The notes under the pieces were generated by a model. The model made no database searches. It was not told the DNA's origin and saw only the letters and a list, made by a program, of their open reading frames with translations. A stretch of DNA of 64,000 nucleotides from Cristatella mucedo (taxonomy: Eukaryota; Bryozoa; Phylactolaemata; Cristatellidae): assembly GCA_009760855.2 (NCBI GenBank), contig WPIO01000164.1, forward strand, positions 552,001 through 616,000, written 5' to 3'. Shown piece after piece: positions 2,740 through 31,304 of the stretch. The position numbers and the translations under genes were made by a program. Numbering within the stretch: the stretch's first letter is position 1; each line of letters starts with the position of its first letter.

Positions 2740-2905
2740 TATACTAGCTGATTTAGCAGCCTCTTTTTATAAAGCGACAGAAGAGCCTTTGCGGTATCAC
2801 CACCTTTTCCAGCAGCGATAGATGATCGCACACCGTACGATTCGAACCCACGACCTCGAGACCGAGGTCATATAGAGCAACCGACCTATAGGGTGTATCA
2901 TCCAA
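2740..2905 (-). mobile_element. SINE-1 (tRNA-derived)
   Basis: The minus strand shows GGTCGTGGGTTCGAATCG (B-box), an upstream A-box-like region with CCTATAGGTCGGTTGCTC, then the SINE-1 body ending AGAGGCTGCTAAATCAGCTAGTAT. Related copies are at 14.6, 19.8, 32.7, 45.7 and 50.9 kb. Its 5' end touches or overlaps the end of the CTLD exon at 2886-3099. Confidence 0.75.
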
Positions 2906-3099
2906 AATACTGTTGGAGAATCAATGCGACTGGCGATAAAATTTGCGACTCTCTGGTATAACCACGTAACGTTTCCGTTTGCGGCCTCATAATTAGTAGC
3001 AGAGCAGGCGACGAGTGCGCTTTCGAAGGAGAGTAGATTAGCTTTCTGGGATACGCAAACTCCCGTTTCGTTTGAATAGCTCCAGGTCGCATCGGGCTT
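2886..3099 (-). CDS. Modular gene exon: first half of a CTLD
   Basis: A strong acceptor (GTGTCTTTTTTTTAG) opens a phase-0 frame: KPDATWSYSNETGVCVSQ, ANLLSFESALVACSATNY, GNVTWLYQRVANFIASRI, then TVFWM. The W...C...kanLLsfes...FWM pattern fits the first half of a C-type lectin domain, and two N-glycosylation sequons are present. The upstream CCP exon ends in phase 0, so the junction fits. The 3' boundary is uncertain: the only GT donor giving phase 1 (ATAG|GTCGGT at 2885) lies inside the adjoining SINE-1, so the original donor may have been lost or replaced. If the SINE starts at FWM, the last few codons are SINE-derived. Confidence 0.55.
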
Positions 3100-3179
3100 C
3101 TAAAAAAAAGACACGAATGTAAGGCAATATGTCACGCACTTCAGAAGATATATAATTTTTACTCCACCAAGAAGCATAC

Positions 3180-3391
3180 TCTTGTGCAAGGCAGGATGCT
3201 TGAATTGGTCCATTGATCGGGCATCTTGCAGTAAAAAATCCGAATCTCCAACTCATCCTGAAACTCGTAGCCCTCTTCACACTTAACGGCTATCCAGTCA
3301 TTGAAGTCGAAGAGACTTGATCCGACACCAGTGCTGGAACTGACTATCTTCGAATGCTGAGGTATGGATGGCAAATTTGAGCAGAAAATTC
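3180..3391 (-). CDS. Modular gene exon: CCP (sushi) domain 2
   Basis: The acceptor TTGTTCCTAG opens a phase-1 exon with a textbook CCP layout: C1 in IFCSNLPS, C2 in AVKCEEGYEF, C3 in IFYCKMPDQW with the conserved Trp, and C4 in ILPCTR. CCP modules are about 60-residue beta sandwiches with Cys1-3 and Cys2-4 disulfides, found in complement and adhesion proteins. The donor AGA|GTATGC gives phase 0, matching the phase-0 acceptor at 3099. The 212-nt length is consistent with phase 1 in, phase 0 out. A damaged copy of its 5' half lies just upstream at about 4170-4275. Confidence 0.8.
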
Positions 3392-3491
3392 CTAGGAACA
3401 AATAATTAGAGAAGTTTGAAAGATGTTCAAACTAGGACTGTTATAATCAATTTAATAGCATCATCAAACTAGTTAGATATATTTAACGTAC

Positions 3492-3704
3492 TGTGACATT
3501 GCCTAAGCAGAGGTGACCACGAATTGCATCCCAGACACCGACTCGAGAAGGTTCTCTGAGAGTCACCACGGACTAGCCACCCAGAGCCACAGGTGAATGC
3601 ATTCAGAGATCCTCGAAGCAACGATCCGCTGACTGCTGCAATGCCAGAGCTGTTCGGTGGATTCACTTGACAGCAACCACAGAAATCGACGTCCGTTGAC
3701 GAGC
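3492..3704 (-). CDS. Modular gene exon: CCP (sushi) domain 1
   Basis: This 213-nt phase 1-1 exon lies between acceptor TTTTTATTCAAG and donor CACA|GTACGT. The frame reads CCQVNPPNSSGIAAVSGS, NAFTCGSGW, SSRCLGCNSWSPLLRQC, giving the four CCP cysteines and the Trp before Cys4, plus extra Cys residues near both ends that may form an additional bond. It precedes the second CCP exon by about 100 nt of intron, a compact tandem pair. Confidence 0.75.
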
Positions 3705-4169
3705 CTTGAATAAAAATGTTTGTCAGTTACTGTGTGAATTCAGCTTTATTCCTAAGAGAGATAAATTAACACTATCAAGAATTTATTGTATTACCAGTGA
3801 CTACATACGCAGGACAAACTATGAAGACTCCCTTTCATACCGTATTTGAAGTCATATGTACGATTTCATTCATATAAAACGGGCACCGGCATGTGCATCT
3901 GCTTGTAGACATGTGATTAAACAAGAAAGCGGTCACTCGTGGCAATTAATTATTTTACTTAAATAGTCATATATATATATGAATAGAATTTTATATCAGG
4001 TGCATTAATTAATAAACTAATGGAGAGAAAACCAGGTAAGTAACTTTTTTTAGGCTCATGGTATTTTCCCAAAGCTTATACTGCATCGTACTTTATATAT
4101 CGGAAATTAACTTTCGCCTTGTGCGACCCCTCGACGTCTGATATTGATTATATTTCAGAGACATCTGCA
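3705..4169. other. Intron sequence of the modular gene
   Basis: AT-rich sequence with a short TATATATATA run near 3970. I saw no repeat family member or exon. Confidence 0.5.
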
Positions 4170-4275
4170 ATCAGCGCTAGGACTGACAGTCTTCGAATGC
4201 AGAGAGATGGATTGTAACTTGGAGCCGAAAATTCCGAGGAAATAACTTCGATTAAGGTTTGAAGAACTGTTGCTT
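4170..4275 (-). pseudogene. Decayed partial duplicate of the CCP-2 exon
   Basis: The stretch aligns base by base with about 3330-3440, the start of the CCP-2 exon and its upstream intron: CTTCGAATGC, then TGGATTGTAACTTGGAGC versus TGGATGGCAAATTTGAGC, and AAAATTCC(G/T)AGGAA. The acceptor AG (CCTAG) is CCTCG here, and the first CCP cysteine codon TGC is GGC. It therefore cannot splice or fold as a CCP. The homology fades after about 105 nt. Confidence 0.65.
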
Positions 4276-4934
4276 GATGCCTGAAAATTGCTATTATAAA
4301 GATTTTCTGTGAACTAACGCTATCGATAGATACACAAATTACTTACTTAAAGGGTGAGCTGCTCATGCCGCGACAATTTTATCAAAGCCAATTTGTAGTG
4401 CACTTATTAATAACGTTAAAGGCTTAAGCAATTCCCTTCTTTTGCTCTAGAAATTGTCTGAAAAAGTACGAGTCGAAAGGGTAATTTTTACTTTGCTGAA
4501 TCATTGATTCATTATTAAGGATTCTACGAAAATTACCTGCAAGGATTTTTTTAAAGCTACCCGCGACAGGCCTCATTTTTATCATTAGCCGTATCCACTT
4601 AAGAATGCGAGGAAAATATCATTTCTAACTTCTATCTCTAAAAATCTAGAGTTTAGTTCCTTTTCAACATCCTGGATTAACGTGATTTCTAGCATTGCTT
4701 GTAGTCTTAAAAGAACTTTATTCAGCTTAGAACTCTATAAAATACGATTGACCTTAAAATTTTAACTATGATTACACGACTTAATAATTAAAGAATATAA
4801 AGATGTACTTTAAGATATACATTATAAGATGAACGTCATCCACATTTTGGGACATGTATGTCTTAAATGGGCATGATTGCAGAACTACCAATAATTTATA
4901 ATTTTCATTTATGGGACATCATCTATGGTTATAG
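4276..4934. other. Intron sequence, AT-rich
   Basis: No exon, RNA gene or recognised repeat seen. It ends at the left arm of the foldback element. Confidence 0.5.
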
Positions 4935-5065
4935 GAAAGTTCCCCCTAGAAGTTCCCCCCCCCGGACATTTCCCCCTCATGGACCCTACGACATTTCCCT
5001 CCGGACATTCCCCCGGGGTAGGACATTTTCCCCATATGTTGATGAATGTATAGCTAAAAACAAAG

Positions 5066-5229
<164 letters not shown>

Positions 5230-5604
5230 GATCAAATAAAGTCCACGCTCCATTGAAATAAACTGAACTCCGTATAATTTGAAGGATGGATGGATTGGAA
5301 GGATGGTTACTAATGGAGCGAGTGGCGGCGGTGGTAGCTGCGGCGGCGGCGGCAGCAGCGGTGTCGGCCAGCTAAACAATTCGGTAGCACAGGAGTTCGG
5401 TACCGCTCGACGCCGCCAGGCACGTGTCTGTACCCGTCGAAGCGGGTTCGGGCTACGGCATGCCGCGCAATCTTAAAAATGAGTGCGAAGCTTCAAAGGT
5501 CTACTGAATATAACTCGATCTCAAGAGATCTTGTTTTGCCCTAATACGCACTAATTAAAGCGTGGAATACGAGCAATGGTGGATTTAGGCGGCGGAGGCG
5601 CAGC

Positions 5605-5703
5605 CCACCCTAAACCCTAAGCCCCTGAATACTAAACCCTAAACCCTGAAACCCTAAACACTTAATCCTAAACCCTAAACCCTAGGACCATAAACCCTAA
5701 ATT
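5605..5703. repeat. Degenerate CCCTAAA (TTTAGGG) telomere-like array
   Basis: CCCTAAA or close variants recur about ten times (ACCCTAAACCCTAGGACC, AAACCCTGAAACCCTAAAC). Heptamer TTTAGGG is the plant-type telomere unit; most animals use TTAGGG. The array is imperfect and sits inside the foldback element, so it may be an unrelated minisatellite. Confidence 0.7.
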
Positions 5704-5994
5704 ATATACCCAGGGGAATGTCCTGCCCCAGGGGTGAAATTTCCAGGGGAAATGTCCAGGGGGAAAATGTCCTGGGGAAACGTCCAGAGGGAAGTGTCCG
5801 CACCCCCATCTAAAGCTATTCATCAAGTTCGAATGTAATTTGAGACTGTTAACTTCATACTTTGACGTAAACTAGAGCTCTTACTAGCTTCTTGGTTCCC
5901 ACGCAACAGAACTTCTGAGATTTAGCTTTGTTTGGTCTACTGAAAAGATTATTTAACCCATAACGTACGGTATGCATGTATGTATGTGTGTATA

Positions 5995-6960
5995 TATGTA
6001 TGTTTCTCCGTCTTTAGCTCCACAAAGCCACATTTACTACGTGGGTGTTACGCTGGAACGATTTGGCAAGCGCTCGCACAGCCTAAGCAGCTTTTGGTAC
6101 TCATTTGGCAGTGAGCAAACATTATCTCACGAAATTAAGAGAAAGTGAGAAGCACAGGATAGTCAGGAGAGCAGTTTTGGTAGTGAGTAGCATAAAAGTA
6201 GCATTAGAGGACAGCTAGAAAGAATGTTCCATAGTCGGCAGCGAGAGAGTAGTTGTCGTTGCGTATGAATCGTGGACGCGAGCTCCTCAGTCTAGGACCT
6301 GCAGAGCTAAAGCTTCTGTCGCCAACGGTCTTTAAGCAGAGGAATGAATGAAACAGCTAATTTATCGTCCATTGGGAACCTTAGGGCACAAGGAGGCTTA
6401 AACAGGTGTAGCAGTTCCGCTAGGTATGAAGGAGCCGACCCGCCATGGTAGGCCTTGTGGGTCACTGTAAGAACTTGGCTCAGTATCCGTTGATGAAGCG
6501 GCAGCCATCCAAGCTCTTTCAGCAATGAATACACTTTGTCAAACCTCTGGGATTTGTAAACTAGCCTTGTAGTCATGTTCATCGCTAGTTGCAGCGGCCT
6601 ACTGGCTTTTCCGACAGCTCAGCCAAAATGGACAAAATCATCTAGCCGAGACAGAACTAAGGAGCATTTTAAATATTTTGCAAGCCACCGCGGAAGACAG
6701 TTCGAAACCTTAAATAGGGATCAGAAGCAGTCTTCTTGACAAAGCTTTTAAAATTTTGGCAGATGTCGACGACAACACTTAAACTCTAAGCGAATGTTAA
6801 TGGGCACACAAAAATTATCCCTTATTTGAAGAGCTAAGCCTTCTCGTACAGCCAAACACTTAGGTGGTCTTACGAGTTGCAGTTCCGCTTTCTTTTCATT
6901 CAGTTTCAGGAAACTTGCCGGCATCCGCCTTCGAATGTCTGAGGCAGGCATTCAGTTTAT
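5995..6960 (-). mobile_element. LINE-B, 3' half of RT plus 3' UTR
   Basis: On the minus strand this runs from the LINE-B region encoding FLKLNEKKAELQLVRPPK (the counterpart of FLKLIDNKTELLLIRHPK in the 24 kb copy), through the RLVYKSQRFDKVYSLLKELGWLP part, to the terminus near 6000. Frame breaks split the product; the fragment encoding LVYKSQRFDKVYSLLKELGW is at 6307-6582. Confidence 0.8.
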
Positions 6961-7564
6961 TAGTTGGTGCAGCAGATTTCGACGGAACATGCCGGCGGTG
7001 TACGTTCAAAGCCAGAGAACTGCCCCACATGGGTCTTTTTTTAATGAAGGGTGCTTTTTTCCGTTGACGTTAAGCATAACGTTTACTTGACCCCAAGGTT
7101 GACCACCGTGGCTGGCTCCTAAATGCCTTGCTGAGCTGCTGCACTCTCTTCGGGCTCCTCTCGCCATGCGGTCGTCACGATGGACCGCTCAATGTACTGC
7201 TTTTCGGTTCTCAGCTTCGAATCATTGGAAAAAGAAGATTTTCTTGTGCTGCTACTGTGAAAGCTCAAGATTTAAAAAGCTCTAGCTGCACCCTTCACTC
7301 GCGAATTGGCGTTCGGCTCATCTTGTACAGTCTTTGTATGTTAAATCGCTTATGCTATGAAATTATTCACACTGACCTAAATCAGCTATGTTTCCCATTT
7401 TCTCTTTGTTGAACCATGTGGAATCTTTTGCTTAGTCTTTGCTCGCTGATAGCCGGTTTGACTTTTGAGTGAGCCATAGGAAACTCTGCATCACAAATCC
7501 ATGCAGTCTTCTTCGCAGCTGCTCGAGTTAGAGATAGATAAATGTACACTTTATTTACAAAACC
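6961..7564. other. Unassigned intron-like stretch
   Basis: Mixed-composition sequence. Short open frames exist on both strands but show no family resemblance or splice-site support. Confidence 0.4.
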
Positions 7565-7895
7565 TACGCATTTACCCTGACACTCACTCCCGCCTTGCGT
7601 CACGACATCTCCTGACTTGACGACATTTAAAAGATCCTATGAATGCACCTATTCGTCACAGCATGTAGTGGGTCCCGCGATTCGTCCTTTATTTGCTCAT
7701 GCATGCTGACACTTGTGTATGCTGCCACTAACCACAATTGCATGCTGACCCTGCACATGTCAGCTCTAACTTGCTCATTGAGCGTGCTACCACTAACCAT
7801 TCGATTGTGCATTCTTTATAAAAAATTTAAAGTGGCTAGAACAGATTGATTTCTCTGAGGGGCTATATGCAATTTACCATCATTATTATTTTATA
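7565..7895 (+). mobile_element. LINE-A 3' end
   Basis: Contains the LINE-A C-terminal coding remnant (CTGACTTGACGACATTTAAAA), the 3' UTR landmark GGGTCCCGCGATTCGTCCTT and the terminal hairpin region (TTTAAAGTGGCTAGAAC...TTCTCTGAGGGGCT), then an ATTATTATT tail. Diverged and truncated. Confidence 0.8.
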
Positions 7896-8162
7896 ATTTT
7901 ATAATGTATTTATTAATATACAATTGTATTATTTAATTACAATTCATTAAATGTATGTAAATAATTTTAAACTTATCATATTTGCAGTCGCTTGCACTCT
8001 TACTTTTATCCTGAGATCCAGACTTTCCTTTAAAAAAAGAATATTTCTGAGTATTTTGCAAAAGCAAATGAATCTACCTTCGAAGGATGAAAACTTTGTA
8101 GAATCTATATCACCATTAGACAGTGGAATGATAGGAATGAATTTTTGATTCACTTGTATTAC

Positions 8163-8417
8163 CTTGGCATTTCTCTTGCGAACAAGGTGGATTCTGAACA
8201 TAACACATTCTTTTTCTTGTTCTCGTTTTCTTTATTCCGTCGCAAACTTCTAGCCACGGGCTCCATTCTAACCAATGAGACGTTTGTGTATGGCGCTGAC
8301 AGATAAACCTTAAATTGGCGTTGCACGGTTGTGTCATAGTTGTTAGGTTTCCGTTCGTGGAGTCAAAAAGACCAGCGATGCACGAGTCACTTTTAAATTG
8401 AGATTCGGCTACATTAG
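8163..8417 (-). CDS. Modular gene exon: CTLD second half plus TSP1
   Basis: A strong acceptor (CTTCTGTCTTGTCTTTGTAG) and a phase-1 donor (CAAG|GTAATA) bound a 255-nt phase 1-1 exon. The frame begins NVAESQFKSDSCIAGLF, then TTMTQPCNANLRFICQR, the closing disulfide region of a C-type lectin fold. It continues SHWLEWSPWLEVCDGIKK, TRKRMCYVQNPPCSQEKC, a TSP1 repeat with W..WS.W, basic R/K layer residues and paired cysteines. The WND motif used for calcium-dependent sugar binding is absent (TTMTQPC), so classical lectin activity is doubtful. It joins in phase to the exon at 8549-8734. Confidence 0.78.
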
Positions 8418-8548
8418 CTACAAAGACAAGACAGAAGCTAGTATCACGGCATATATGCCATATATGCGGTATATTGTGTAATCAAGAAAAACTGCTGGAT
8501 ATATGGAAAACTATTTCCGATAAATTGCCGCTCGAAACGTTTTCTTAC

Positions 8549-8734
8549 CGATCCAGAATAATGACAGGACCATTTCGTTAAGTGAGCCAGACATTATAGC
8601 TTTGACATCATTATTATAATCAGTCAGTAGCATCGAGTTCTGGTATATACAGCTCCTATTTGAGTTATTCAGATCTTGGTGGTTCGACAGCATACTAATA
8701 GCAATGCAGTCGCAGCCATGGCAGATGAAATTCA
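8549..8734 (-). CDS. Modular gene exon: CTLD first half
   Basis: The 186-nt exon is phase 1-1, with acceptor TTTCATCCAG and donor ATCG|GTAAGA. The frame reads VNFICHGCDCIAISML, SCIYQNSMLLTDYNNDVK, then MVLSLFWIG. The C...nsmLLtdyn...I...FWIG pattern is the first half of a C-type lectin domain, and the exon at 8163-8417 supplies the rest. The break directly after the WIG motif, in phase 1, supports the pairing. The extra cysteines at the start (CHGCDC) are unusual. Confidence 0.65.
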
Positions 8735-9345
8735 CTGGATGAAACGAAAAATAATATTGCACTCACTTCTGAGTTGATCTTAAATTTTTTCGCACACACT
8801 GAGTCCCTAGCATATGCTCAGTTGAACGTATTTTACCCAGGAGAAATTGAATTGCATACTTCATCAAGCAGACTTTAAAATCTTTGACAAACCATATATA
8901 AACTAGCAATAGTATACAGTTCACTAGCTAATTTAGCTGTTTGATTAAGCCTTTTGTGCTCGGTTCACCTTGAGCAAAATCAGATTTGTGGATCTCAATA
9001 AATTGCAATCAGCATTTAATTGTACCTTTATGTTAGATTTAATAACGAGAGTTATATAGCAGTCGTTGCACACTATCAGAGTGCCCTGTCCTGCCGCGGT
9101 CGTCAGTTCCGTCCTCAACTCTTGGCTTGAACAGGTGACCAAACGGCTCTGGATCAGATCGCACTGCGATCGCGTCAGAGAAACACAATGGCCTCAGTAT
9201 ATTTTTCTCAGTTCAAGGGATCCCGAGATAATCCAGGTAGGCTTCAAAGCCGGGCAACCAGCTGCCTAATTCATGTACTACAAAAGGCCACACCTTGGCG
9301 GACCGACGGTCGGCATTTAGCAATGACCGAGCTGCGACCATGTAC
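8735..9345. other. Intron sequence of the modular gene
   Basis: No further exon with acceptable splice sites was convincing. A Cys-containing minus frame near 9000-9165 (TTAAGQGTLIVCNDCYI) follows an acceptor-like CGATCGCAG but fits no domain I know. Confidence 0.35.
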
Positions 9346-9425
9346 TTTGCAGCAAATGTACGGCGCCTAGATAGAGATTGAGTTCTCTGATGGCCCTTTA
9401 TCAAGTGTATTTTTATTATTACTTG
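9346..9425 (+). mobile_element. LINE-A 3' tail fragment
   Basis: Only the terminal hairpin region is present (ACGGCGCCTAGATAGAGATT...TTCTCTGATGGCCCTT), with TTTTTATTATT after it. A heavily 5'-truncated insertion or a SINE tail. Confidence 0.75.
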
Positions 9426-10264
9426 TCGACCTTGTCCTGGGAAGCCATCGCCAAGGAACCGCTTTCGATGTTGTGTCTTGATCATTGTCACAATCAAACA
9501 GATAGAGACGATAATATGATGCGGCTACTAATGGAACTCGGACAAAAGCAAAGAAACCTTTGTGGCTATCAAAATGTCAAAGCCGCAACCTCAAGAAAGA
9601 GCAGGCTTGTTCTTAGACTTTTACACTCAAGCTATCTTTTATCAATTATGAGCCCACATGTATCCTGGAGCCGTAAAAACTGACAGTCGCAAGCCATCCA
9701 GTATTTTAAACTAGGAAAACCTAATTGTTTGCATCTCGGATATAGACGCATGCTAATCTACTAGCTCCTTGGTCTACTTGATAAGTTAGGTTTTACAGGT
9801 TGAATTGCTTCAGATGCGATGCGAGTTTAAATGGCTTGATCAAACTGAAATCCTCCAATTCTCGCTATTTGCGTTTCAATTTCTATCCAATAACTAAAAT
9901 TCAGAGTGTTCACAAAAGTAATTACGGCTCTTTCTACTGAGACTATGTTAAAATACAATGACACGGTCGATTTCATGCTATAAAATAACGCCAATGTGCC
10001 ATAAAGAGACCTACAAGTGAGTGAAAAACTTTGAAGACAAGTGGCTGCTTCATTAGGATCTGATGGGCCAGCGAGAAGTAGCGAAACGTGGCACGTTCGC
10101 CGCTCACGACGAACAAGCCGTTCGTTTTCACATATGATCTTTACAGAAGCAGTTCAGAATCTTCTATTTGAGCACCTGTGAACTCGTTTTATCGAGGAGA
10201 ATACTAAGATAGATTTAAATGCAAGAAATCGGTCGGTGCGGATTCCCAGCCCGCCGATCCCATG
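9426..10264. other. Unassigned intron-like stretch
   Basis: The open frame at 9378-9683 (plus) has no recognisable domain and overlaps a repeat tail. No RNA gene or repeat family was recognised. Confidence 0.4.
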
Positions 10265-10372
10265 AGGGGGCATTTCCCTTTGCAGCAAATGCATAGCGCC
10301 TAGAAAGAGATTAAGTTCTCTGAGGGCGCTTTATCAAGTACATTATTATTATTATTATTATTATTAAGGTAG
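10265..10372 (+). mobile_element. LINE-A 3' tail fragment
   Basis: Carries GCAGCAAATGCATAGCGCC, the hairpin and GGGCGCTTTATCAAGTACA followed by (TTA)n. Very close to consensus but under 110 bp. Confidence 0.85.
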
Positions 10373-10514
10373 TACTGGAGCATACGGGCCACAGGGGCAC
10401 AAGTACAAGCAGTGTATTTTCATGTTGTTTTGCAACGTGCCGTCACATTCTCCTGCCCCCCACATCTTTTTTGTAACGCTTACGTCACTTGCTTCTGCGT
10501 GAAGCACTGCCTGA

Positions 10515-11185
10515 AGCTTAATAATAATAATAATAATAATAATATTGCACTTGATAAAGCGCCCTCAGAGAACTTAATCTCTTTCTAGGCGCTTTACATT
10601 TGCTGCAAAGTGATACGCAATAGAATAGTAAGTAAAATCATGCTTGAAAAACAAACAAAATGAATAACATGGTTAGGGGTTACATGCACTGGGTCAGCAT
10701 GCAAATGTGGTTAGTGGCAGCATGAACAATGTCAGCACGCATAAGCACATCGAGGACGAATCACATGGACCCACTAAATGCTGTCCTAAATAGGTATGTT
10801 TTTAAGTTTCTTTTAAATGTGGTCAGGTCAGGGGATGTTCTGACGCAGGTCGGGAGGGAGTTCCAGGCTGTGGGAGCATACGAGCTAAATGCACGGTCTC
10901 CAAAGGATTTAAGGTTTGTACGAGGTATTTCTAGACTGTTGGATTCCGAAAAGCGAGTGGTACGATGCTTTGCCTGATGGGGTAGTATATCTGAAAGATA
11001 GGCTGGAGCCATAGAATGAAGAGACCTAAAAGTGAGCGACAAAACCTTGAAGTCAATCCGTTGCTTGACTGGTAACCTGTGCAGGTCGGCGAGAAGTGGA
11101 GTAATGTGGCAACTGCGACGCTCACGACAGACAAGCCTAGCTGCAGAGTTTTGCACCAGCTGCAATCGCTTGATTGAGAACTAGA
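10515..11185 (-). mobile_element. LINE-A, C-terminal coding end and 3' UTR
   Basis: Begins with (AAT)n and the hairpin on the minus strand. The minus frame 10761-11165 reads [34 protein letters not shown], ... TYLFRTAFSGSM, the last 134 residues of the LINE-A protein without a stop. The 3' UTR shares subfamily-specific variants (AGAATAGTAAGTAAAATC) with copies at 12955-14113 and 44580-44826, so this is a young subfamily member. Confidence 0.88.
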
Positions 11186-11353
11186 CTGGACTAGACTAGA
11201 AGCTACTTACTAGGTTTGAATTTCCGCTCTCGGGGATTTACTTGTCTGTTGTTGCTCTATCAAGCGTCTGTGACTGTAATGGCAAAAGGAAGATTTTTCG
11301 AAGGAATTTTTGTTCTTTTTATATAGTTTAATTGGCAAGGCATTGTGTGTGCA

Positions 11354-12600: not shown

Positions 12601-12954
12601 CAGCTCCGGATGGTGGGAAGAGTTGAACCACAAAAGACCGCTTGACAAGAAATTGGAGTGAGATATAACATGTTTACCTTTCGCAAACTAACGTGTTAGT
12701 AATGTGACCTATAGATTGAGCAAACTTGAAAATATTTTGTATAACTCTAACTAAAAGCACAATTGGTGAAATGAAAAGCAGAGCGTGAGCTCACATGACA
12801 CAATAATCACTTGAACTCGATTAATAGGCAATTAATGTGTCCCCAAGTGACAGACTAGGTGCTCTTTAATTAGTTACTGACATCTCTAATACGTATAGTC
12901 ATATTTCACAAGTACGCTGCTTAGCCATATTTATGGACCCGTTTCATTTACAAT

Positions 12955-14113
12955 ACACGGTTTATACTCTGCCTCTTGTTGATGTGATTGCCAAGCACAA
13001 TCTAGGCTTTCACTTCTACGCGGATGACACTCAGTTGTACCTTTGCTTTGATCCCTCCCAGCCTTCGAGCACATCAAATTCTCTCAACTCACTTGCTGCA
13101 TGCATCGATGACATGCGCACATGGATGGCAGCAAATTTTCTAAAACTAAACGATGATAAAACTAACTTACTAGTTATGGGCAAATCCAGTGTGATTCACA
13201 AATTGGAAAGGCTGACTTTCAAAATTGGCTCTGCCAGCATATCACCAGTTGAATCAGCTCGAAATCTAGCTGTCATATTCCAAAGTGACCTCTCGTTAGA
13301 TGACCACATCAGCTCCACAGTCAAATCTGCCTATTTTCAGCTTCATAACATTGCTAAAATTAGGGCTTGTTTAGATAAGGATACCACGTCCAAGTTGGTA
13401 CATGCATTCGTGACATCCCGTCTCGACTTCTGCAACTCACTGCTTACTGGCCTACCAGCATGTGCGATCATGCGATTGCAGCTGGTGCCAAACTCTGCAG
13501 CTAGGCTTGTCTGTCGTGAGCGTCGCTGTTGCCACATTACTCCACTTCTCGCCGACCTGCACTGGCTACCAGTGGGGCAACGGATTGACTTCAAGGTTTT
13601 GTCGCTCACTTTTAGGTCTCTTCATTCTATGGCTCCAGCCTATCTTTCAGATATACTACCCCACCAGGCCAAGCATCGTACCACCCGCTTCTCGGAATCC
13701 AACAGTCTGGAAATACCTCGTACAAACCTTAAATCCATTGGAGACCGTGCATTTAGCTCGTATGCTCCCAAAGCCTGGAACTCCCACCCGACCTGCGTCA
13801 GAACATCCCCTGACCTGACCACATTTAAAAGAAACTTAAAAACACACCTATTTAGGACAGCACTTAGTGGGTCCCTGTGATTCGTCCTTGATGTGCTTAT
13901 GCGTGCTGACACTGTGCATGCTGCCACTAACCACATTTGCATGCTGACCCTGTGCATGTCACCCCTAACCATATTATTCATTTTGTTTGTTTTTCAAGCA
14001 TGATTTTACTTACTATTCTATTGCATATCACTTTGCAGCAAATGTAAAGCGCCTAGAAAGAGATTGAGTTCTCTGAGGGCGCTTTATCAAGTGCAATATT
14101 ATTATTATTATTA
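12955..14113 (+). mobile_element. LINE-A, 5'-truncated copy with intact RT C-terminus
   Basis: An uninterrupted frame (12933-13880) covers the catalytic FYADDTQLYL box at about residue 29, the connection region (LVMGKSSVIHKLERLTFK), and the conserved end ([20 protein letters not shown] ... FRTALSGSL). The 3' UTR, hairpin (14046-14085) and (ATT)n tail follow. The element starts abruptly around CACGGTTTATACTCTGCC, so fingers and upstream motifs are missing and it cannot be active. The hairpin is perfect: AAAGCGCC pairs with GGCGCTTT. Confidence 0.93.
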
Positions 14114-14279: not shown

Positions 14280-14423
14280 GTGGACATTGTGGTTGTGCTA
14301 GGCATTGTCGGAAGCTTGATTCGCTGGTATTTATACCGCGGATAAATCGCTGACGTGTTTGAACTCCGGATCCGCATTCGGACCAGCACTCTGTGAAAGC
14401 TCCCCATTCTGTCCAAGAGTAAT
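14280..14423 (-). CDS. Modular gene exon: TSP1 repeat
   Basis: This 144-nt phase 1-1 exon lies between acceptor ACCGTTTCAG and donor CCAC|GTAAGA. The frame reads YSWTEWGAFTECWSECGS, GVQTRQRFIRGINTSESS, FRQCLAQPQCP. It has the TSP1 W..W core, the CSxTCG-like element (CWSECGSG), alternating R/Q/R layer residues and paired cysteines. W..W is also the context for C-mannosylation in TSP1 modules. A sequon (NTS) is present. It is a single-module exon of the shuffled class, in register with its neighbours. Confidence 0.85.
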
Positions 14424-16211: not shown

Positions 16212-16532
16212 CTTTTATTTCAAATTCCATGAATGTAGATAGTAATGAGTAGGACCTATAAAAACTATCTCTGGTTATTTCTACTTCGCATTGAACCATA
16301 GCTGAACCATTGGCGTCATTGTTCCATATCATGACAACGGCATTGCCATTGCCTTCCGAATTTCTGTGAAGCCTTATGTTTTGGCTAACGTACCAATTAG
16401 TGTTTATCATGGTGAAGTCTCTAAGAGCTGAGCAGTCACATAAAGCTTCATATAATTCACTATTGGGAAAAATAATATTCAAATAATTTGATTGTGGAAA
16501 TTTCACCCTTGAGATTCTAACCACTGGAACAT
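16212..16532 (-). CDS. Modular gene exon: Ig-like domain 3
   Basis: The 321-nt phase 1-1 exon has acceptor TTTACATTGCAG and donor AAAG|GTAAGA. The frame starts DVPVVRISRVKFPQSNYL and includes ELYEALCDCSALRDF (B-strand cysteine region), NTNWYVSQNIRL (C-strand Trp) and NGSAMVQCEVEITRD (F-strand cysteine). The spacing and one exon per domain fit an Ig-superfamily module. No residue signature identifies a known receptor family. Confidence 0.7.
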
Positions 16533-20993: not shown

Positions 20994-21326
20994 CCAAGCT
21001 AAAAGTGGGTAGAGTTCTTATGGTTTCTGATTTAACAATTGTTTCTTCAGATGGTCCGAATTTCAATGCACAGAATATTGATACTTCTTTAAATGGTACC
21101 TCAATAGACAATTGGCTCGTTTGAACTGTGCTGTGATTACTGGCGCAGCCGGGTGCTGTGGTATTGGAGGAATTCATTGTCACAGCGTCAATACCGTCAA
21201 TGAACCAGTGGACACTCCAGATATTTGAGGTGTTTCCACCAAGAGATATAATGAGGCAGCAAAATGTGCGAGTGTTCCCTTGATTTTCAGGCATGGTCAG
21301 CTGAGTGAGCATCACTTTATCTACAT
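20994..21326 (-). CDS. Modular gene exon: Ig-like domain 2
   Basis: This 333-nt phase 1-1 exon has acceptor CCTTCACTGCAG and donor TTGG|GTAAGT. The frame reads DVDKVMLTQLTMPENQ, RTFCCLIISLGG (B strand), SVHWFIDGIDAV (C-strand Trp), SQLSIEVPFKEVSIFCALKF (E and F strands with the second cysteine). It contains the sequons NTS, NSS, NTT and NHS, so it is expected to be heavily N-glycosylated. Confidence 0.75.
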
Positions 21327-22225: not shown

Positions 22226-22227
22226 TA

Positions 22228-23486: not shown

Positions 23487-23512
23487 CTGAGCGCCTCTCA
23501 TCTTACCTGGGC
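23487..23512 (+). mobile_element. LINE-A RT fragment, part 2 (26 bp between two insertions)
   Basis: TGAGCGCCTCTCATCTTACC and GGGCGT match the continuation of part 1 (58313-58336 in the reference-like copy). Confidence 0.6.
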
Positions 23513-25238
23513 GTGAAAGACATTGCAACACTAGCAGACCAACATAGCCCTGCCATAACCAAGATTTTTAATGCTTCTTTGGGAAGAGGGGTCGTCCCCA
23601 AGTCCTTCAAATCAACAATCGTTAGACCTTTTCTTAAAAAGCCTGGATTAGACACATAGGTCCTAGCAAACTATCGCCCAGTTTCCCTTCTTCCGTTCTT
23701 ATCAAAGGTTCTTAAAAAAAATTGTTGCTAAGCAGCTCGTTGAACATATTGAAAACAATGAAATGTCAGAAACATTTCTATCAGGGTTCAAGAGCCAGCA
23801 CTCTACTGAAACTGCTATCAGGGTTCAAGAGCCAGCACTCTACTGAAACTGCTCTCCTCCATGTTAACAATGACATTCTACGTGGCAGCAACGACGGGAA
23901 CTTCACAGCCCTAGCTCTGCTAGATCTTTCTGCTACCTTCGACACCATTGATCACGAAATTCTGCAGGAACGATTGAGAACAACGATCGGTCTGGCCGAC
24001 GAAGCACTGGCGCGGTTTAAATTCTACTTGTCTGATCGTGTTCAATCCGTGTTGTGTGGGGGTCAGGTCTTAGACACGAGAGGGGTCACCTGTGGAGTCC
24101 CTCAAGGGTCTGTACTTGGGCCCTTGCTGTTCTCCATTTATACGCAACCTCTGGGAAAAGTGATTAAGGCCCGTGGAATAGGATATCACTTCTATGCTGA
24201 CGATACTCAGTTGTATTTGTCATTCAAACCGTCGGAATCTGCTGCGGCAACTGAGAAACTGAATGCTTGCCTTGCCGATATTTAATCCTGGATGTCAGAA
24301 AACTTCCTGAAACTAATTGATAATAAAACCGAACTGCTGCTCATACGACACCCTAAGCGTGTGGCTGGATTAAAAGGCTTTGCTGTTCTAATAGGTGATA
24401 CTATTGTGCGGCCATCACCACTTGCTCAAAATTTAGGTGTCGTTTTCGACAGCTGCCTCAATTTCAAAAGCATTATTCAGAAGACTGCCTCTACAGCTAG
24501 CCATCACATACGATCCCAGTTCAAGATTAGGAGCTGTCTCCCACAGTGGCTTGCAAAAAATTTAACTAGCTCTCTAGTTCTGTCTCGGCTTGATTATTGT
24601 AATTCCCTTTTAGCTGGGTTGACAAAGAAAGGTATTAGGCCACTACAGCGGACTATAAGCATGGCTGCAAGGCTAGTCTTCAAGTCCCAGCGGTTAGAGC
24701 ACGTGTCTCCTTTGCTGGAAGAACTAGGATGGTTACCGGTTGAGCAACGGATACAGAGCAAAGTTCTTACGCTGACCCACAATTCAGCCATGGCTTTGCC
24801 CTTTCGTAGCTAGCTAAACTGCTGCATCAGTTTCAGCCCTTTCGAGCCTTCAGGTCCTGTGTAGACAATAAATTCGTTGTACCATTTCTCCGCTTAAAGA
24901 CAGTTGGCGACAGAAGCTTTAGCTCTGCAGGTATTAGACTGTGGAACTCGCTTTCACAATTCTAACGCAATGACAACTACTCGTCTACTGCCTACTCTGG
25001 CACATCCTTTTCAGCGGTCCTGAGCTGCAACTTCTATGCTACTCACTACCTCAACTGCTCTCCTGACTCTGCTATGCTTCCCACTCTCTTTTTTGCGTGA
25101 GATGAAGTCTGTTTGCTACCAAATGCGTACCAAAAGCCGCTTAGGCTGTGAGTGCGATATACAAAACTCTCCTGCGTAACATCCACATGGTCTTTATGAC
25201 TTTTTGAAGTTACAGACGGAGACGGAGATACATTACAA
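23513..25238 (+). mobile_element. LINE-B, most complete copy (RT plus 3' UTR)
   Basis: Encodes a CR1/L2-group reverse transcriptase: LSGFKSQHSTETALLHVN, LALLDLSATFDTIDHEIL, GVPQGSVLGPLLFSIY, and FYADDTQLYLSF (catalytic Asp pair at residues 160-161 of the 23722-24285 frame). A TAA at 24283-24285 splits that frame from its in-frame continuation at 24292-24813 (MSENFLKLIDNKTELLLI ... LARSLVF region). A 37-bp direct duplication near 23778-23851 shifts the frame upstream. The 3' UTR runs to GTTACAGACGGAGA near 25220. No endonuclease domain was seen, so it is 5'-truncated. Confidence 0.9.
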
Positions 25239-25359
25239 TGGTTTAGATGCTATCTCTGTGGGAGACTCTATAGTATTGAAGTGAATGGACAACGATCATC
25301 CAAGGAACCTCTTATGGGTTACCTCAGGGCTCTGGTTGGTCTCATTCTTGTCACGGTTT

Positions 25360-25455
<96 letters not shown>

Positions 25456-26025
25456 TGATATGTTTGCCAGCCACAACCTAGGCTTTTAATTCTGTGAAGA
25501 TAGCACTCACTTTAATCTTTGCTTAGATCCCACCCTGCGCTCCTACTCGTCGAATTCTCTGAACTCCCTCGCTGCATGTATTAATGGTATTTGTAAATGG
25601 ATGGCAGAAACGTTTCTTAAATTGAATGATGATAAGTCATCTTACTAGTTATGGGCAAAGCAATTTTGATTCAAAAATTTGATTTCGTAAATGTCACAAT
25701 CGGCTCTGCCATCATATTTCCTGTTGAATTTGACCAAAATCTATGTTTCAAGCTCCAAAGTGACTTTTTTTTTATTAGACGACAACATCAACTTCACAGT
25801 CCTCTCTGAATACTTTCAGCTACATAACATTTCTAAAGTTTTGGCTTGTTCAGAAAGGGATACCAGATCTAAATTGGACCACGCATTTTTGATATCCCGT
25901 CTTGACTTCTGTAACTTACCGCTAGTTGGTATACTCGCTTTTGTCTGTCATGAGCGTCGCAGTTGCCACATCGCACCACTTTTCACACACCTGCACTGGC
26001 TCCAAGTCAAGAAACGCGTCGATTA
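25239..26025 (+). mobile_element. LINE-A RT fragment, part 3 of the interrupted copy
   Basis: TGGTTTAGATGCTATCTCTG and GGGTTACCTCAGGGCTCTGG (GVPQGS box) continue the copy begun at 22228. A (CT)n tract has expanded at the exact site of CTCTCCCTCTTGC in the 58 kb copy. Coding homology continues to GTCAAGAAACGCGTCGATTAAAG and then stops; no LINE-A 3' UTR follows. Confidence 0.82.
25363..25452. repeat. (CT)n microsatellite inside a LINE-A ORF
   Basis: About 90 bp of pure CT. Flanks on both sides are LINE-A RT sequence (ACGGTTTATACTCTCT and GATATGTTTGCCAGCCACAA). Confidence 0.95.
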
Positions 26026-26243
26026 AAGTCTAGTTGGGAAGCCGCAATCTTAGAGATGGACTCTCTGATCTTGTCTATCTTCCTGACAAAGAAGCTAGAG
26101 AAGCGATCAGGTGGATTATTACATGGATCACTAGGGAAAAGAGCTAAATTGTGACCGCTTGAAGAGATGGTTGATGGCAGACATCAACAATTTTTGTGTC
26201 TACCATCCATCATCTGAGGTTGCTATATCAAATTTTTTCTTAG
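26026..26243. other. Unassigned stretch
   Basis: Unique-looking sequence after the truncated LINE. No feature supported. Confidence 0.35.
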
Positions 26244-26642
26244 TTACTTAATCCCTTTTTTGACATATATCAGTGACTCCTGGCACAGGTCTCGTCGAAG
26301 TCTTGAGAACTTAATCTCAAGAGAGTGGAGGTCACAAGAGGCGTGTTTAAAGTTCATTTTTGGATCCTGCAGTCTTTTCGGAAGGCCGTCAGTCCTGCTT
26401 AAGATGCTGTCCGAAAATGGAAACAGAGCCAAAAGGCTTAAGTTCAAAGTACCATGTATTAGACTGCCAGCTATAATTCTTGTTTTAAGTGTTCCACTTG
26501 TGCCCTCTGACAGTTGCCCCAAAAGACCTGGAATGCTGTTAAGTTCATTATTTATAGCTTTCACAGCCTCCACTCTTGAAATCCACCTGGCGGCAGAGTC
26601 AAGTTTGACGGCGATGGCTAAGACTTTCTTCTGTTCTTTCAA
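26244..26642 (-). other. Unrecognised 130-codon reading frame
   Basis: The minus frame reads KKVLAIAVKLDSAARWIS, RVEAVKAINNELNSIPGL, LGQLSEGTSGTLKTRIIA. An in-frame upstream stretch (ILITLFGVIASTLLFSR) is hydrophobic but separated by a stop. Composition looks protein-like (amphipathic helix), but I recognise no family, there is no ATG start, and the ends do not show phase-1 splice sites that would link it to the modular gene. It may be a decayed unknown gene or element. Confidence 0.2.
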
Positions 26643-27519
26643 CCTTGGATTCTATCTTGAAAATAATAAGGTGCTCGCTATTACTCCAAACAAGGTAATC
26701 AAAATGGAATCTTGAGTTGCTGCATGAACCCCTGCCAGTTCACTCTGCGGTTATCACAGTTTACAAAATTTGCCTTCTCATTTTGGACATTATCCTCTTT
26801 TGGACACCTGGCAAGTGGCCAGACATGACTGCTGAGTTGTCTTATTAATGCCAGTTAAGCATAGCTTGTGTGGTACAATAGAGTGTCGGTGCTCAGCCAC
26901 GGCAGGCTGATTCGCCCTTGACGCGGCGTAGCAAGCCGGGCGACACAGCCCGCCTGTGTTAGGCAGGATGGGGAGAGCTGATGAGAAAATCAGTTTGAAT
27001 GATTACAGAGGGTTTAACTGCCGTGATCTTGTTTCGCTGGGAGCGTCAGCCGAATACGCGGCGCTTGAAGCACCTTTATTTCCGTGCCGTCCCATGTTTG
27101 CCTCTAGAGCTTCAAACTACAGCTTTGTCTAAGTCTGTAAACATGCTTAACTAGCTCTGCCAGATGTATTTAAGTTTATTTAAACAATGACTTGCGTGAA
27201 ATCATAACTAATATGATCACCTGAAAGTTTTCATAATATGCACACGCCTTTTGGTTTTGGTGCCTCCTTGGCCTTGGCGCCCGGTGTCATCTGTCCCCCT
27301 GCCTACCCCTTGCTAGATCTCGGTAGGAGACAGATGTACACGGGCTGACTAAGAGTTACATTATAACTTGATTACTCATAACTACTTTCAGTTCTAACGA
27401 CGCAGACATTTAAATGCTCTGACGATCATATAATAATGCGTGGGATATCTACCATATTCTATTAATCAAAACGTATAGCTATCGTGGTGATAACTAATAC
27501 TCCAGGCCTCATAACTTAC
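26643..27519. other. Unassigned intron-like stretch
   Basis: Includes a GC-richer part at 26880-26965 (GACGCGGCGTAGCAAGCCGG) of unknown origin. No RNA or coding signature seen. Confidence 0.35.
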
Positions 27520-27939
27520 CACACCACGTGAGATTAGCATTATTTCTGGAGTAAAATTCAATAGGCTGCTGCCTTGATGAAGAAGGGCGTAATGTTGCTT
27601 GGCAACTCATAAGATTTGCGTAGGTCAATGTTGATGATCTGTCTCCTGTGATACGAAGGACAAATGTAGCATTCCAGTATCCGTCATAATGGTAGGATTG
27701 CGAGTTCTGGGAATTACACAGTGCTGAAGTCAAGCTGAAGGATTGAAAAGACTGTCCAAGGTAGCGAGGCAATATTGCTCCCGGGGGGCAGCTATAACCA
27801 TAATACACCTCGCTATGAAGACTAATAGCAAGTCGCATGTCCTCTATTTCGTATCTATCTGGAAATGAAGCTGAACATGCCACGCTGAATGGGTACTTCA
27901 AGCTTAAGCAGATGGGCCACTCACTGATCAATGTTGGCT
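27520..27939 (-). CDS. Modular gene exon: Ig-like domain 1
   Basis: The first module after the signal peptide: 420 nt, phase 1-1, acceptor TCTTTTTTGTAG and donor TGTG|GTAAGT. The frame reads EPTLISEWPICLSLKYPF, SVACSASFPD (B strand), WNATFVLRITGD and LTYANLMSCQATLRP (the Y.x.C F-strand signature). At 140 codons it is longer than a usual Ig domain. The excess holds a CPPG...LCN cysteine pair between the B and F strands, probably a disulfide-stabilised loop. Confidence 0.75.
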
Positions 27940-28654
27940 CTACAAAAAAGACGTCACGTTCGTCCATACAATGATAGTATCAGTTGACATTTAAGTACAT
28001 TTCAACCCATATGTTGAATGCCATCGACCTCGCGAGATGTAAATCATGGGGATATTGTAATGGAAGAGTCAGAGATCATCGTTTAAACGCGGGCCTTATT
28101 TCTGCAAAAGACCAAAGTTTGTTATTCCGTTTCTAGTTTCCGGCGTTTTTGTCATTATTCTGGCAACACCTTGAGTTGGGTAGTATTTTTAAAGTGCAAG
28201 CCTGATTTACTCATTACAGACTAAGGTTTCCACTTTAACAAAAAAGTTCTCCTTCGTCTGCAAGAAGGTCATTTGCTGGCCATTTGAGCACATACAGGTA
28301 AAAAGACAGGGTCAAGGTATTTGAGAAGAATAACTCATTCCACAATCAAGATCACCCAGATTGTAAGGCAAATAGCTACAGGAATTTATAGAAAGAAGTA
28401 CCGCTGGGCTATTTTGGTCAAGTATTCAATATAGTTACATTACTTCATTAAGGACACTTGATAAATAGGCTTGGCTGCTGCTGCTTTTTATTCGATTTTC
28501 TTTTGAAAGATGACCGAATACACCCGGCGACGAATTTTCAGCACTTATGAAAATGCAGAGAGTACTCAAAACCAAGTTTTAAATTGGCTCAAATTTGATC
28601 AGTATGCCGTTCGAAACAACCTTAAATCCTTTGATGTCTGACATGTAATTTAAT
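27940..28654. other. Intron 2 sequence
   Basis: No repeat or exon recognised. Confidence 0.4.
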
Positions 28655-29330
28655 GTAATGTATCTCCGTCTGTAACTCCACAAAGGCTATGTGGGTGTTA
28701 CGCAGGAGAGTTTTCTATAGCTCACTTAGATTCTAAGCAGCTTTCGATACGCATTCGTTAGCCAACAGATTTCATCTCATGCAATAAAGAGAAAGTAGGA
28801 AGCAGGGCAGAGTCAGGAGAGCATTTGAGTTAGCGAGAAGCATGGAAGTAGCAGCTCAGGACCGCTTAAAAGGATGAGCCATTGCCGGCAGCAGGTGAGT
28901 ATTTGTTGTTGCGTAAGAATTGTGGAAGCGAGTTTCACATTCTAGGATCTGCAGAGCTACAGCTTCTGTCGCTAACGGTGTTTAAGCAGAGAAATAGAAC
29001 AGCTAATTTACTGTGCATACAGTACCAGGAGGCTGAAACTGGTGCAGCAGTTCATCTGGTTATGAATGAGCCAAGCCACAGTGAGACTTGCGGATCACGG
29101 AAAAAATTTACTCTGTATCCGTTGATCAACCGGCAGCCATCCAAGCTCTTTTAGCAAAGGTGACACGTGTTCAATCCTCTGGGACTTGAAAACTAGCCTT
29201 GCAGCCATATTCATAGCCAGCTGAAGTGACCCAGATGCTTTTTTTGGTAGCCCCAGCCAAAAAGGAATTAAAATAGTCAAGCCAAGACAGAACTAAGGAG
29301 CTAGTTAAAGACACTTGCAACCCAGCCCTA
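28655..29330 (-). mobile_element. LINE-B 3' end and C-terminal coding remnant
   Basis: Starts at the terminus (GTATCTCCGTCTGTAACTCC, minus orientation), then the 3' UTR, then coding remnant MNMAARLVFKSQRIEHVSPL (minus frame 29095-29280). Frame breaks present. Confidence 0.82.
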
Positions 29331-30129
29331 GATCTTTACTGTTACTTTCTACTGCGGCAGGTCAAGCTGCTGCATAGCACGGAGTCTCATAAATCCATCC
29401 GGTCGTCGCTGCATGTTAATTTGCTGGCTCTTCTTTGTGGTTAGTGCAATCGATAAAAGCTTACGCCGCTGTGCTGGTCTTACGGTGTATTTCTCTCCTT
29501 AAGCGGTTGCTTAATAAAGATACTTTGAGCCAAGACCTGCACAAAAGGATTGCACTTACGAGGCTGCCTCGCGTACGCGATTTAAAATGTGATTGGTGAA
29601 AAGTAGCTGAATGACAAATTCAACATAAAAATATCATTCATTCGGTGCTTTTTTACAGGAATTGAACCGACTAACCCCATTTTGTTTCTTCAGCCATAAA
29701 ACAAAACAAAAAAACAAAAAGATGATCCGCCGTCTTTTTTTGTGATTCCCATCAAAGTGATTTCAACCAACCGTGCAAAGTAGCAGGCGACAGCTGGAGT
29801 AAGGCCTAGTGTACATTCCTTTGCAACTACGCTTGTTGATGGAACATTTCATTTTTATGATTTTTGCATATTTTGGAACAAAGCCACGAAATTTCAGGCA
29901 TTCAGCAAATATTCAAAGAAGTATCTTGTTATAATCCAAATTTTTGAGGTGGTAGCACACTACGTCGGGCGACAAAAATCAAGAGATCGGCAACATATAA
30001 TGGCATTGCAACTTTTCCTCGCATTGCAAGCTATTCCGGTGGATTCTTTTCGTGAATCGCAATATATATATATATATTAGTCTAAAAATGTAGTACAATT
30101 CTAGACTATTTTGAAAAGAAACTCTTTAG
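29331..30129. other. Intron sequence
   Basis: Contains an A-rich run (AAAACAAAACAAAAAAACAA at 29698-29719) and TATATATATATATATA near 30062. No other feature. Confidence 0.4.
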
Positions 30130-30840
30130 TCACTATTTTAATAATAACAGTTTATAAAATGTCTCCAGAGAACTCAATTTCTTTCCAAGCACTTTACATT
30201 TTCTGCAAAGGAAACACGATTTAAGGGTTATTAGTAGCATGCTCGATACACAACAAGCTAAACAACATAAAGAATAACAGGGTTAGGGGTAACATGCACA
30301 GTTACCATGTAACTGTGGTTAGTGGCAGGATGCACAGTGTCAGTATGTATATGCACATAAAGGACGAATCATAGGGGCCCAATAAATGCAGTCATAAATA
30401 GATGCGTTTTTAGTTTCCTTTTAAACGTGGTCAAGTCAGTTGTCGTGACGTAAGTCAGGAGTGAGTTCCAGGCTATATGAGCCTGCGAACTAAAGGCAGT
30501 CTCAAAGGAAGTCTCCAAAGGATTTGACGTTTGTACGAGATATTGGTAAACATTTCTATTCTGAAAAGCTTGTGGTACGATGTTTAACCTGATGGGGGAG
30601 TATATCTGAGAGATAGGCTGGAGCCAAAGAATGAAGGGACCTAAAAGTGAGTGACAAAACCTTGAAGTCGATGCGTTGTTGGACTGGGAGCCAGTGCAGG
30701 TCGGCGGTAAGTTGTGTGATATGGCAACTGCGACGCTCATAAAAGACAAGCCTAGCTGCAGAGTTATGCACCAGCTGTAAGCGCCTGATTGCACGTGCCG
30801 GTTGACCAGCAAGCAGTGAGTTACAGATGTCAGGTCAGAA
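30130..30840 (-). mobile_element. LINE-A C-terminal end and 3' UTR
   Basis: The tail-hairpin (TTTCTTTCCAAGCACTTTAC), 3' UTR and coding remnant with MHNSAARLVFYERRSCHI (30556-30771) are in minus orientation. Diverged, with frame breaks. Confidence 0.82.
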
Positions 30841-31240
30841 GTCAATTACTCTGAACTTAGCATTTAATTTCAATTACAATGAAGAGATCCAATTAGTGGG
30901 GCAGTTACCTTAACAAGCTTCTCTAAGAGGTGGAAATCTAGACAAAAAATGGCCGCATAAGAAAACGAACCATGACGTTTTCAACCAGAAGTTAGCCCAG
31001 TGTATCCAACATTCCGAGTACTAGCACTGTGCGTTCATTTGCGAAAACTCTCTATGTTAAACCATATGCTGCATGATCAACTCTTAGGGATTATGTAGTT
31101 TTTTTCCTTTCAATCGGTTTATATGTAGCAGATCAAGCCACAGCAACAAGTGAAATGTGCAAATGAAAGGGCGGACATTTTGAAGTGGCGCGCTAGAGCA
31201 TGCCAGGCAGCATATTCAGTCTTGTTGGGCTCCAGCTTAC
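30841..31240. other. Intron 1 of the modular gene
   Basis: No feature apart from the splice donor at 31240-31239. Confidence 0.4.
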
Positions 31241-31304
31241 CGGTAGCCAGCGACGACTCACTGGCCGCGAAGGCCATCAAGACGTACAAGATCAAAAGTG
31301 CCAT
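31241..31304 (-). CDS. Modular gene exon 1: signal peptide
   Basis: ATG at 31304-31302 begins MALLILYVLMAFAASESSLAT, a hydrophobic core with small residues before a likely cleavage site near SSLA. It is interrupted after 64 nt by the strong donor ACCG|GTAAGC in phase 1. Signal-peptide exons ending in phase 1 are the classic start of secreted proteins assembled from phase 1-1 modules, and the next downstream exon (27939) begins in phase 1. The predicted product enters the secretory pathway: Ig x3, TSP1, CTLD, TSP1, CCP x2, then CTLD. No membrane anchor or GPI signal was established. The first ATG and absence of an upstream frame favour this start. Confidence 0.65.

Follow-up and report, generated by a model that had tools for sequence, protein, structure and literature searches.

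The natural killer (NK) receptors NKG2D and CD94 are type II proteins with a single C-type lectin-like domain (CTLD). The R3 receptor protein tyrosine phosphatases (RPTPs: PTPRB, PTPRJ, PTPRH, PTPRO and PTPRQ) have ectodomains made of fibronectin repeats (PMC5336234) and not of immunoglobulin (Ig), TSP1, CTLD or CCP modules. In Botryllus, fester has ~350 residues with one Ig domain, one sushi domain and three transmembrane (TM) segments, and FcoR has 520–610 residues in the order Ig-sushi-Ig-Ig-TM (PMC12065747). Here we analyze a window of 64,000 nucleotides from the bryozoan Cristatella mucedo (contig WPIO01000164.1, referred to as C71, positions 552001–616000), which holds ten exons of a modular gene. 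These exons probably form the 5′ half of a longer gene of 26 predicted exons, which would encode a large type I TM receptor and is one of a set of tandem copies. The predicted full order is signal peptide, three Ig-like modules, TSP1, CTLD, TSP1, two CCPs, CTLD, TSP1, six CCPs, an R3-like juxtamembrane region, TM helix and tail. The locus looks like a lineage-specific array of recognition receptors, which we consider the best reading of its sequence. Coordinates are in window numbering, with negative values beyond the left edge, except where a contig is named; the genome searched comprises 572 Mb in 688 contigs.

Completion of the window gene

All ten exons proposed by the first-pass annotation were found between 31304 and 2886 on the minus strand, a strand that the annotation had left unstated, and this observed exon set is real. 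Each of the nine junctions among them is GT-AG and phase-compatible, and the joined exons encode 787 stop-free residues rather than the earlier estimate of about 717. Lengths divisible by three, reported for the module exons up to the second CCP, hold for all seven exons E2–E8; the second CCP exon itself, E9 (212 nucleotides), is not divisible by three and leaves in phase 0. The exons and phases bear out the idea of an exon-shuffled single gene with mostly phase 1-1 modules.

The view of these exons as a complete secreted protein is not borne out. In 190 kb read to the left of the window, further exons were located on the same strand, and the completed gene (copy 1) is predicted to comprise 26 exons over 70,251 bp, reaching position -38946, about 39 kb past the left window edge. 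Because a predicted TM exon and tail exons lie beyond the edge, the window gene looks like a type I receptor gene and not a gene for a secreted protein, the ten exons encoding the N-terminal half of the predicted product. The exon list that ended at a CTLD half was incomplete, and the order runs on as CTLD-TSP1-CCP x6-RPTP-like juxtamembrane region-TM-tail. The third CCP seemingly begins in the preceding TSP1 exon (CSDPG / IPQNAY, by eye). The predicted protein has about 1,785 residues in the copy 2 model, copy 1 being open for 1,626, and the highest 19-residue hydropathy peak coincides with the TM exon in both copies (2.24 in copy 1 and 2.31 in copy 2).

Splice sites of copy 1 beyond the window, and those of copy 2, were set by comparison between copies, among GT/AG candidates. 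The GT-AG count, 25/25 junctions in copies 1 and 2, is consequently not independent, and the independent support comes from the phases, which agree at 25/25 junctions in copy 2 and 24/25 in copy 1, where the TM exon is the sole exception. The introns of the window gene are rich in reverse-transcriptase fragments and repeats, which partly explains why the gene is so spread out. Reverse-transcriptase fragments occur at many places in 1–32000, within introns and in both orientations.

Tandem copies and diverged relatives

Copy 2 extends from -55528 to -132588 in the same orientation, with 26/26 exons in the same order, and copy 3 begins at -145856, with all 13 exon peptides E1–E13 matching as far as the sequence was read; each of these start positions is that of an E1 equivalent. 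Each of the 26 copy 1 exon peptides has a match (E ≤ 1e-3) in the 134.6 kb containing copies 2 and 3, and 0/26 have one in a reversed or dinucleotide-shuffled version of that sequence, which is more than chance would give. Genome-wide, the juxtamembrane module gives 13 matches, 12 of them on C71 in four occurrences, which include ~339 kb (copy 3) and ~281 kb (copy 4) of that contig, and one occurrence on contig C78. For the CTLD1-TSP1-CCP1-2 module, 12/15 matches lie on C71, where they mark three occurrences, and the other three, which are weaker, lie on contig C155. Since neither module search matches beyond the window copy, this copy is the outermost of the array, which by these matches contains at least three copies and probably four.

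More diverged relatives of the two halves of the architecture are found at other sites in the genome, one on C78 and one on C155. The C78 relative has a similar RPTP-like juxtamembrane region and reaches 25.3 bits with the PTP_tm family (PF18861), just under its cut-off. This locus (C78:624001–634000) is very GC-rich and holds CCP exons, an E19/E20-like region, the peptide 'EYCNGPLK...LDTPC' and a likely TM exon. The C155 locus has TSP1, CCPs, a CTLD half with TSP1, and a split CTLD, the last recognized by eye, with no Pfam CTLD match there.

Selection and exchange between copies

We estimated dN/dS (nonsynonymous over synonymous divergence) with a Nei-Gojobori script; in copy 3, splice-site patterns placed 7/13 exons and tblastn ranges were used for the other six. 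Over the whole alignments, dN/dS is 0.35 between copies 1 and 2 (1,755 codons), 0.42 between copies 1 and 3 (942) and 0.37 between copies 2 and 3 (940). Low module values are seen in the putative stalk of TSP1 and CCP modules: TSP1a 0.10–0.18, TSP1c 0.12–0.30, CCP4 0.09 and CCP8 0.12, with CCPs 4–8 compared for copies 1 and 2 only. High values are found in the putative tip of Ig-like and CTLD modules and in the tail: Ig3 (0.66, 0.50 and 0.21), CTLD2 (0.55–0.62), Ig1 (0.45–0.58) and tail (0.49). Between copies 1 and 2, dN is 0.26–0.43 in Ig1, Ig3, CTLD2 and the tail and 0.05–0.16 in TSP1a, TSP1c and CCP3–8.

The copies are also a mosaic. Between copies 1 and 3, dS is 0.10–0.27 in E8–E13 versus 0.40–0.92 in E1–E7. 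Four introns of the E8–E13 block (all but E10–E11) are 76–89% alike between copies 1 and 3, versus 59–68% between copies 1 and 2; the E6–E7 intron, outside the block, is 70% alike, and inside the block long alignments run through exon and intron. A closer block that includes its introns is the trace expected of gene conversion or unequal crossing-over. Recognition receptors under turnover would likewise be expected to show rapid divergence in parts of the tip, a slowly evolving stalk, tandem copies and exchange between these copies.

The same data bear on a different proposal, namely that the gene encodes a large adhesion or matrix-binding surface protein, structural rather than immune, whose modules attach to extracellular matrix or adjacent cells and which was multiplied by neutral tandem duplication. 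Adhesion proteins often contain TSP1 and CCP modules, and here these modules are constrained (dN/dS 0.09–0.39); the copy 2 tail has no Y-x-x-L/I/V motif. We regard an adhesion protein as somewhat unlikely, given that dN in Ig1, Ig3, CTLD2 and the tail is above that of the stalk, that copies 1 and 3 have a closer block in common, and that CTLD1 finds its one significant profile match in an NK receptor.

Domain assignment

The Pfam search of the part beyond the window returns sushi domains at E 4.9e-35 over six stretches. PF18861, an R3-type juxtamembrane domain that lies next to the membrane in receptor phosphatase type J, scores 28.5 bits in copy 2, above the cut-off of 26.3, and 23.8 bits in copy 1, below it. 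A genome search with PF18861 gave no matches anywhere, controls included, and is uninformative, probably owing to the spread of the region over several exons. No fibronectin type III (FN3) domain was matched by Pfam up to E 1, and by eye E19–E20 may be one degenerate FN3.

The domain check of the ten joined exons recovered TSP1 and no Ig, CTLD or sushi domain. The TSP1 matches, at E5 (TSP1_spondin E 0.0016, TSP_1 E 0.022), are both under the curated cut-off, and TSP_1 stays under it in the completed gene. The Pfam result for the ten exons, weak TSP1 matches and an unrelated Meiosis_expr match only, suggested that the domains might be imaginary, an idea overturned by the downstream half of the gene and by the copies. 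A profile of the three copies of CTLD1 matches an NKG2D chain in the PDB (E 1.2e-4), with an alignment confined to the first half of CTLD1; the other 11 of the 12 PDB matches (NKG2D, CD94) have E 0.07–0.3 and are not significant.

Evidence against the receptor reading

Several observations weigh against a receptor of this composition. First, both reading frames are interrupted. The copy 1 TM exon is one base longer than that of copy 2, and this extra base leads to a stop at residue 1627, 16 residues past the 19-residue hydropathy peak and ahead of the tail exons. The stop may be a real truncation giving a short-tailed form, or reflect alternative splicing or an assembly error. Copy 2 has a stop at residue 787, at the E10/E11 join, where the donor is uncertain and a second hydropathy peak of 1.76 is found.

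Second, the tip is poorly recognized. Searched singly, none of E2, E3, E4, CTLD1 and CTLD2 (the last taken from copies 1 and 3) gives a Pfam match up to E 10, and CCPs 1–2 in the window have no Pfam sushi match. The Ig1, Ig2 and Ig3 profiles find nothing significant in the PDB: Ig3 (E4) has no match up to E 10, Ig1 (E2) none that is meaningful, and the best Ig match of Ig2 (E3), an IgG C region at E 0.1, ranks behind an unrelated protein at 0.038. The best AlphaFold model of Ig1 is all-beta with one short helix, at a low mean predicted local distance difference test (pLDDT) of 56 (others 42–51), and that of Ig2 is all-beta with seven strands, at a low mean of 67 (other four 37–42). With Pfam silent on the Ig, CTLD and window CCP modules, their labels rest on residue patterns, the PDB match of half of CTLD1, the tblastn match of CCP 2 to a downstream CCP and these two low-confidence all-beta models. 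A genome search for CTLD exons placed none on C71 among the 33 matches listed. CTLD exon clusters are found on C111 (~3.46–3.71 Mb), C419 (~2.85–2.90 Mb) and C9 (~1.19–1.36 Mb), 33 matches in all.

Third, the HRM family (PF02793) matches CCP 7 at 35.1 bits in copy 2, above its cut-off of 26.2, and at 25.2 bits, just short of it, in copy 1, which is probably a cross-match between small disulphide domains. Fourth, the tip modules Ig2 and CTLD1 evolve no faster than the stalk (dN 0.16 and 0.12), and dN/dS exceeds 1 in no module. Taken label by label, the assignment is firm for the CCP stalk and the RPTP-like anchor and likely for TSP1 and CTLD1, whereas Ig and CTLD2 are reasonable but tentative labels.

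The interruptions could also mean that the array consists of decaying pseudogenes. To the frameshift and stop in copy 1 and the copy 2 stop, which falls where the junction is uncertain, this explanation can add a TAG inside one juxtamembrane match each of copies 3 and 4, as well as the position of copy 4 pieces, known from three matches, on both strands. Decay is nonetheless very improbable: copy 1 has 1,626 open residues before its stop, the phases fit at 24/25 and 25/25 junctions, and dN/dS over the 1,755 codons shared by copies 1 and 2 is 0.35.

A weak point of the window model is the donor of E10 in copy 1 (2886, GTCGGT), which is poor and lies at the edge of a dispersed repeat; two more occurrences of this repeat, at -104774 and -106781, lie within introns of copy 2 (81.5% identity over 146 nucleotides and 81.8% over 143, blastn). 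Copy 2 is without such a site at that place. One gene might produce two isoform classes, a membrane form and a secreted or short-tailed form. Read-through past the weak donor would allow a secreted product much like the one in the first-pass annotation, and the copy 1 stop soon after the TM helix would suit such an arrangement. Against this, E11–E21 show conservation and constraint when copies 1 and 2 are compared, as do E11–E13 in copy 3, and we consider the two-isoform account improbable.

A possible phosphatase-less receptor class

The predicted exon structure, the copies, the constraint on them and their mosaic pattern are read directly from the sequence. To describe how a receptor of this architecture might work, we divide it into three regions. 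First: the Ig/CTLD tip would bind a ligand on another cell or on a microbe. Second: the CCP/TSP1 stalk would hold the tip off the membrane. Third: the RPTP-like anchor and TM helix would relay a signal via partner proteins or short tail motifs, since no phosphatase, the usual neighbor of this juxtamembrane domain, was found to follow it. In copy 2 the tail is ~170 residues long and contains no catalytic domain. The single Y-x-x-L motif of copy 1 (SRYQTL, in E23) lies past the copy 1 stop, and the copy 2 tail has none. Splicing, surface location, ligand binding and an immune or allorecognition role are what we infer from this architecture.

No PTP domain was placed on C71 among the 136 genome matches listed (150/186 candidates scored), and PTP active-site and WPD motifs were absent from the 254 kb scanned of the 695 kb of C71, with only two stray QG-type matches. 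Elsewhere in the genome, at least 136 PTP-domain exon matches form many clusters (e.g. C25, C41, C653, C196, C219 and C110). They look like a large expansion of tyrosine phosphatases, which may be of receptor type.

Divergence is fastest in some tip modules and in the tail, and a central block is shared, so the array may be a small, evolving recognition repertoire. More tentatively, as a reading somewhat less likely than not, we propose a lineage-specific class of phosphatase-less receptors, in which an R3-RPTP anchor would have lost its catalytic domain and gained a shuffled Ig-TSP1-CTLD-CCP arm, and a segment-exchanging tandem array would serve self/non-self recognition in parallel to fester and FcoR. 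If true, it would be a new receptor class in which a receptor-phosphatase anchor bears a complement-like stalk, Ig-like modules and a CTLD resembling that of NK receptors. It would also be a case of signalling anchors and recognition modules being re-sorted, with concrete genes for testing.

Features and neighboring genes

Table 1. Predicted exons and associated features of the receptor gene, in window numbering (negative values lie beyond the left window edge)
Feature	Position	Strand	Remark
E1, signal peptide with start codon; phase-1 donor	31241..31304	-	peak hydropathy of 1.81, at residue 1
E2, first Ig-like module, phase 1-1	27520..27939	-	53/51% identical to copies 2/3
E3, second Ig-like module, phase 1-1	20994..21326	-	75/65% identical to copies 2/3
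E4, third Ig-like module, phase 1-1	16212..16532	-	62/57% identical to copies 2/3
E5, TSP1 module, phase 1-1	14280..14423	-	sub-cut-off Pfam TSP1 matches; dN/dS 0.10–0.18
E6, first half of CTLD 1, phase 1-1	8549..8734	-	NKG2D profile match over this half
E7, second half of CTLD 1 and fused TSP1, phase 1-1	8163..8417	-	kept in copies 2 and 3
E8, CCP 1, phase 1-1	3492..3704	-	kept in copies 2 and 3
E9, CCP 2, phase 1 in, 0 out	3180..3391	-	tblastn match to downstream CCP 6, E 2e-4
E10, CTLD 2, first half; enters in phase 0, leaves in phase 1; weak donor	2886..3099	-	
Dispersed repeat starting at E10 donor	2744..2888	-	blastn
Copy 1 E11, CTLD half	-1810..-2010	-	
Copy 1 TSP1 exon (third TSP1)	-2175..-2324	-	
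Copy 1 six further CCP exons	-2613..-2774, -6335..-6541, -13096..-13317, -14356..-14550, -14639..-14827, -19795..-20000	-	
Copy 1 juxtamembrane region, five exons	-22087..-22192, -22250..-22389, -27121..-27474, -28828..-28934, -29017..-29153	-	
Copy 1 TM exon	-31115..-31273	-	conserved in copy 2, -122876..-123033
Copy 1 tail exons	-33504..-33766; E23 -38736..-38946	-	E23 has a stop codon in its own frame
CCP 7, copy 2	-107627..-107815		Pfam HRM above cut-off on a stretch also readable as sushi

To the right of the receptor gene, the window contains an EFHB gene, whose C-terminal EF-hand domain lies at 39022–39228 on the minus strand (Pfam PF25325, E 3.2e-15); positions 41503–41919 on the same strand belong by eye to this gene, with no match above the cut-off. 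The first coding exon of a small GTPase lies at 53701–53958 on the plus strand (Ras family, E 8.4e-10; Rab5-like by eye). A LINE-type reverse transcriptase occupies 57693–59081 on the plus strand (RVT_1, E 5.6e-31), and another reverse-transcriptase match, at 12870–13877 on the plus strand, is under the cut-off (E 3e-4). An Rfam search of the window gave 0 matches. In the COX1 of contig C688, translated with table 13, seven AGA and four AGG codons read as glycine at sites resembling conserved glycines, which fits the ascidian mitochondrial code, where AGR encodes glycine. Fragments matching COX1 occur outside contig C688, at C166:4375626–4376390 and C83:2826–3735 and on C549 and C299, and are possible nuclear insertions of mitochondrial DNA.

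Comparison with known receptors

The first-pass annotation suggested that the gene could be lineage-specific, which is plausible, and knew no named family with its domain order, and we too found the order unmatched to any named family. A literature search, subscription papers and preprints aside, listed no paper with a description of this module order. The predicted receptor resembles the R3 RPTPs in its PF18861 juxtamembrane domain (copy 2), its signal peptide and its one predicted TM helix, and differs in its ectodomain modules and in that no PTP domain was found on C71 among the matches listed. What the two have in common is the anchor.

Fester and FcoR (PMC12065747) are likewise type I membrane proteins that are encoded by several genes and combine Ig and sushi domains. 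A Y-x-x-I/L/V core motif is found in some FcoR tails and is comparable to SRYQTL in E23 of copy 1, downstream of the copy 1 stop. In contrast to both, the predicted protein here has ~1,785 residues, TSP1 and CTLD modules, eight CCPs and an RPTP-like juxtamembrane region, an order and size unlike those of either. Botryllus fuhc-tm shares three tandem Ig domains and a type I membrane topology with the predicted receptor, but has about 535 residues, and the passages of PMC12065747 on it name no TSP1, CTLD or CCP. The likeness to NKG2D and CD94 lies in the CTLD1 profile matches, of which one, to NKG2D over the first half of the domain, is significant, whereas the CTLD here is internal in a predicted type I protein.

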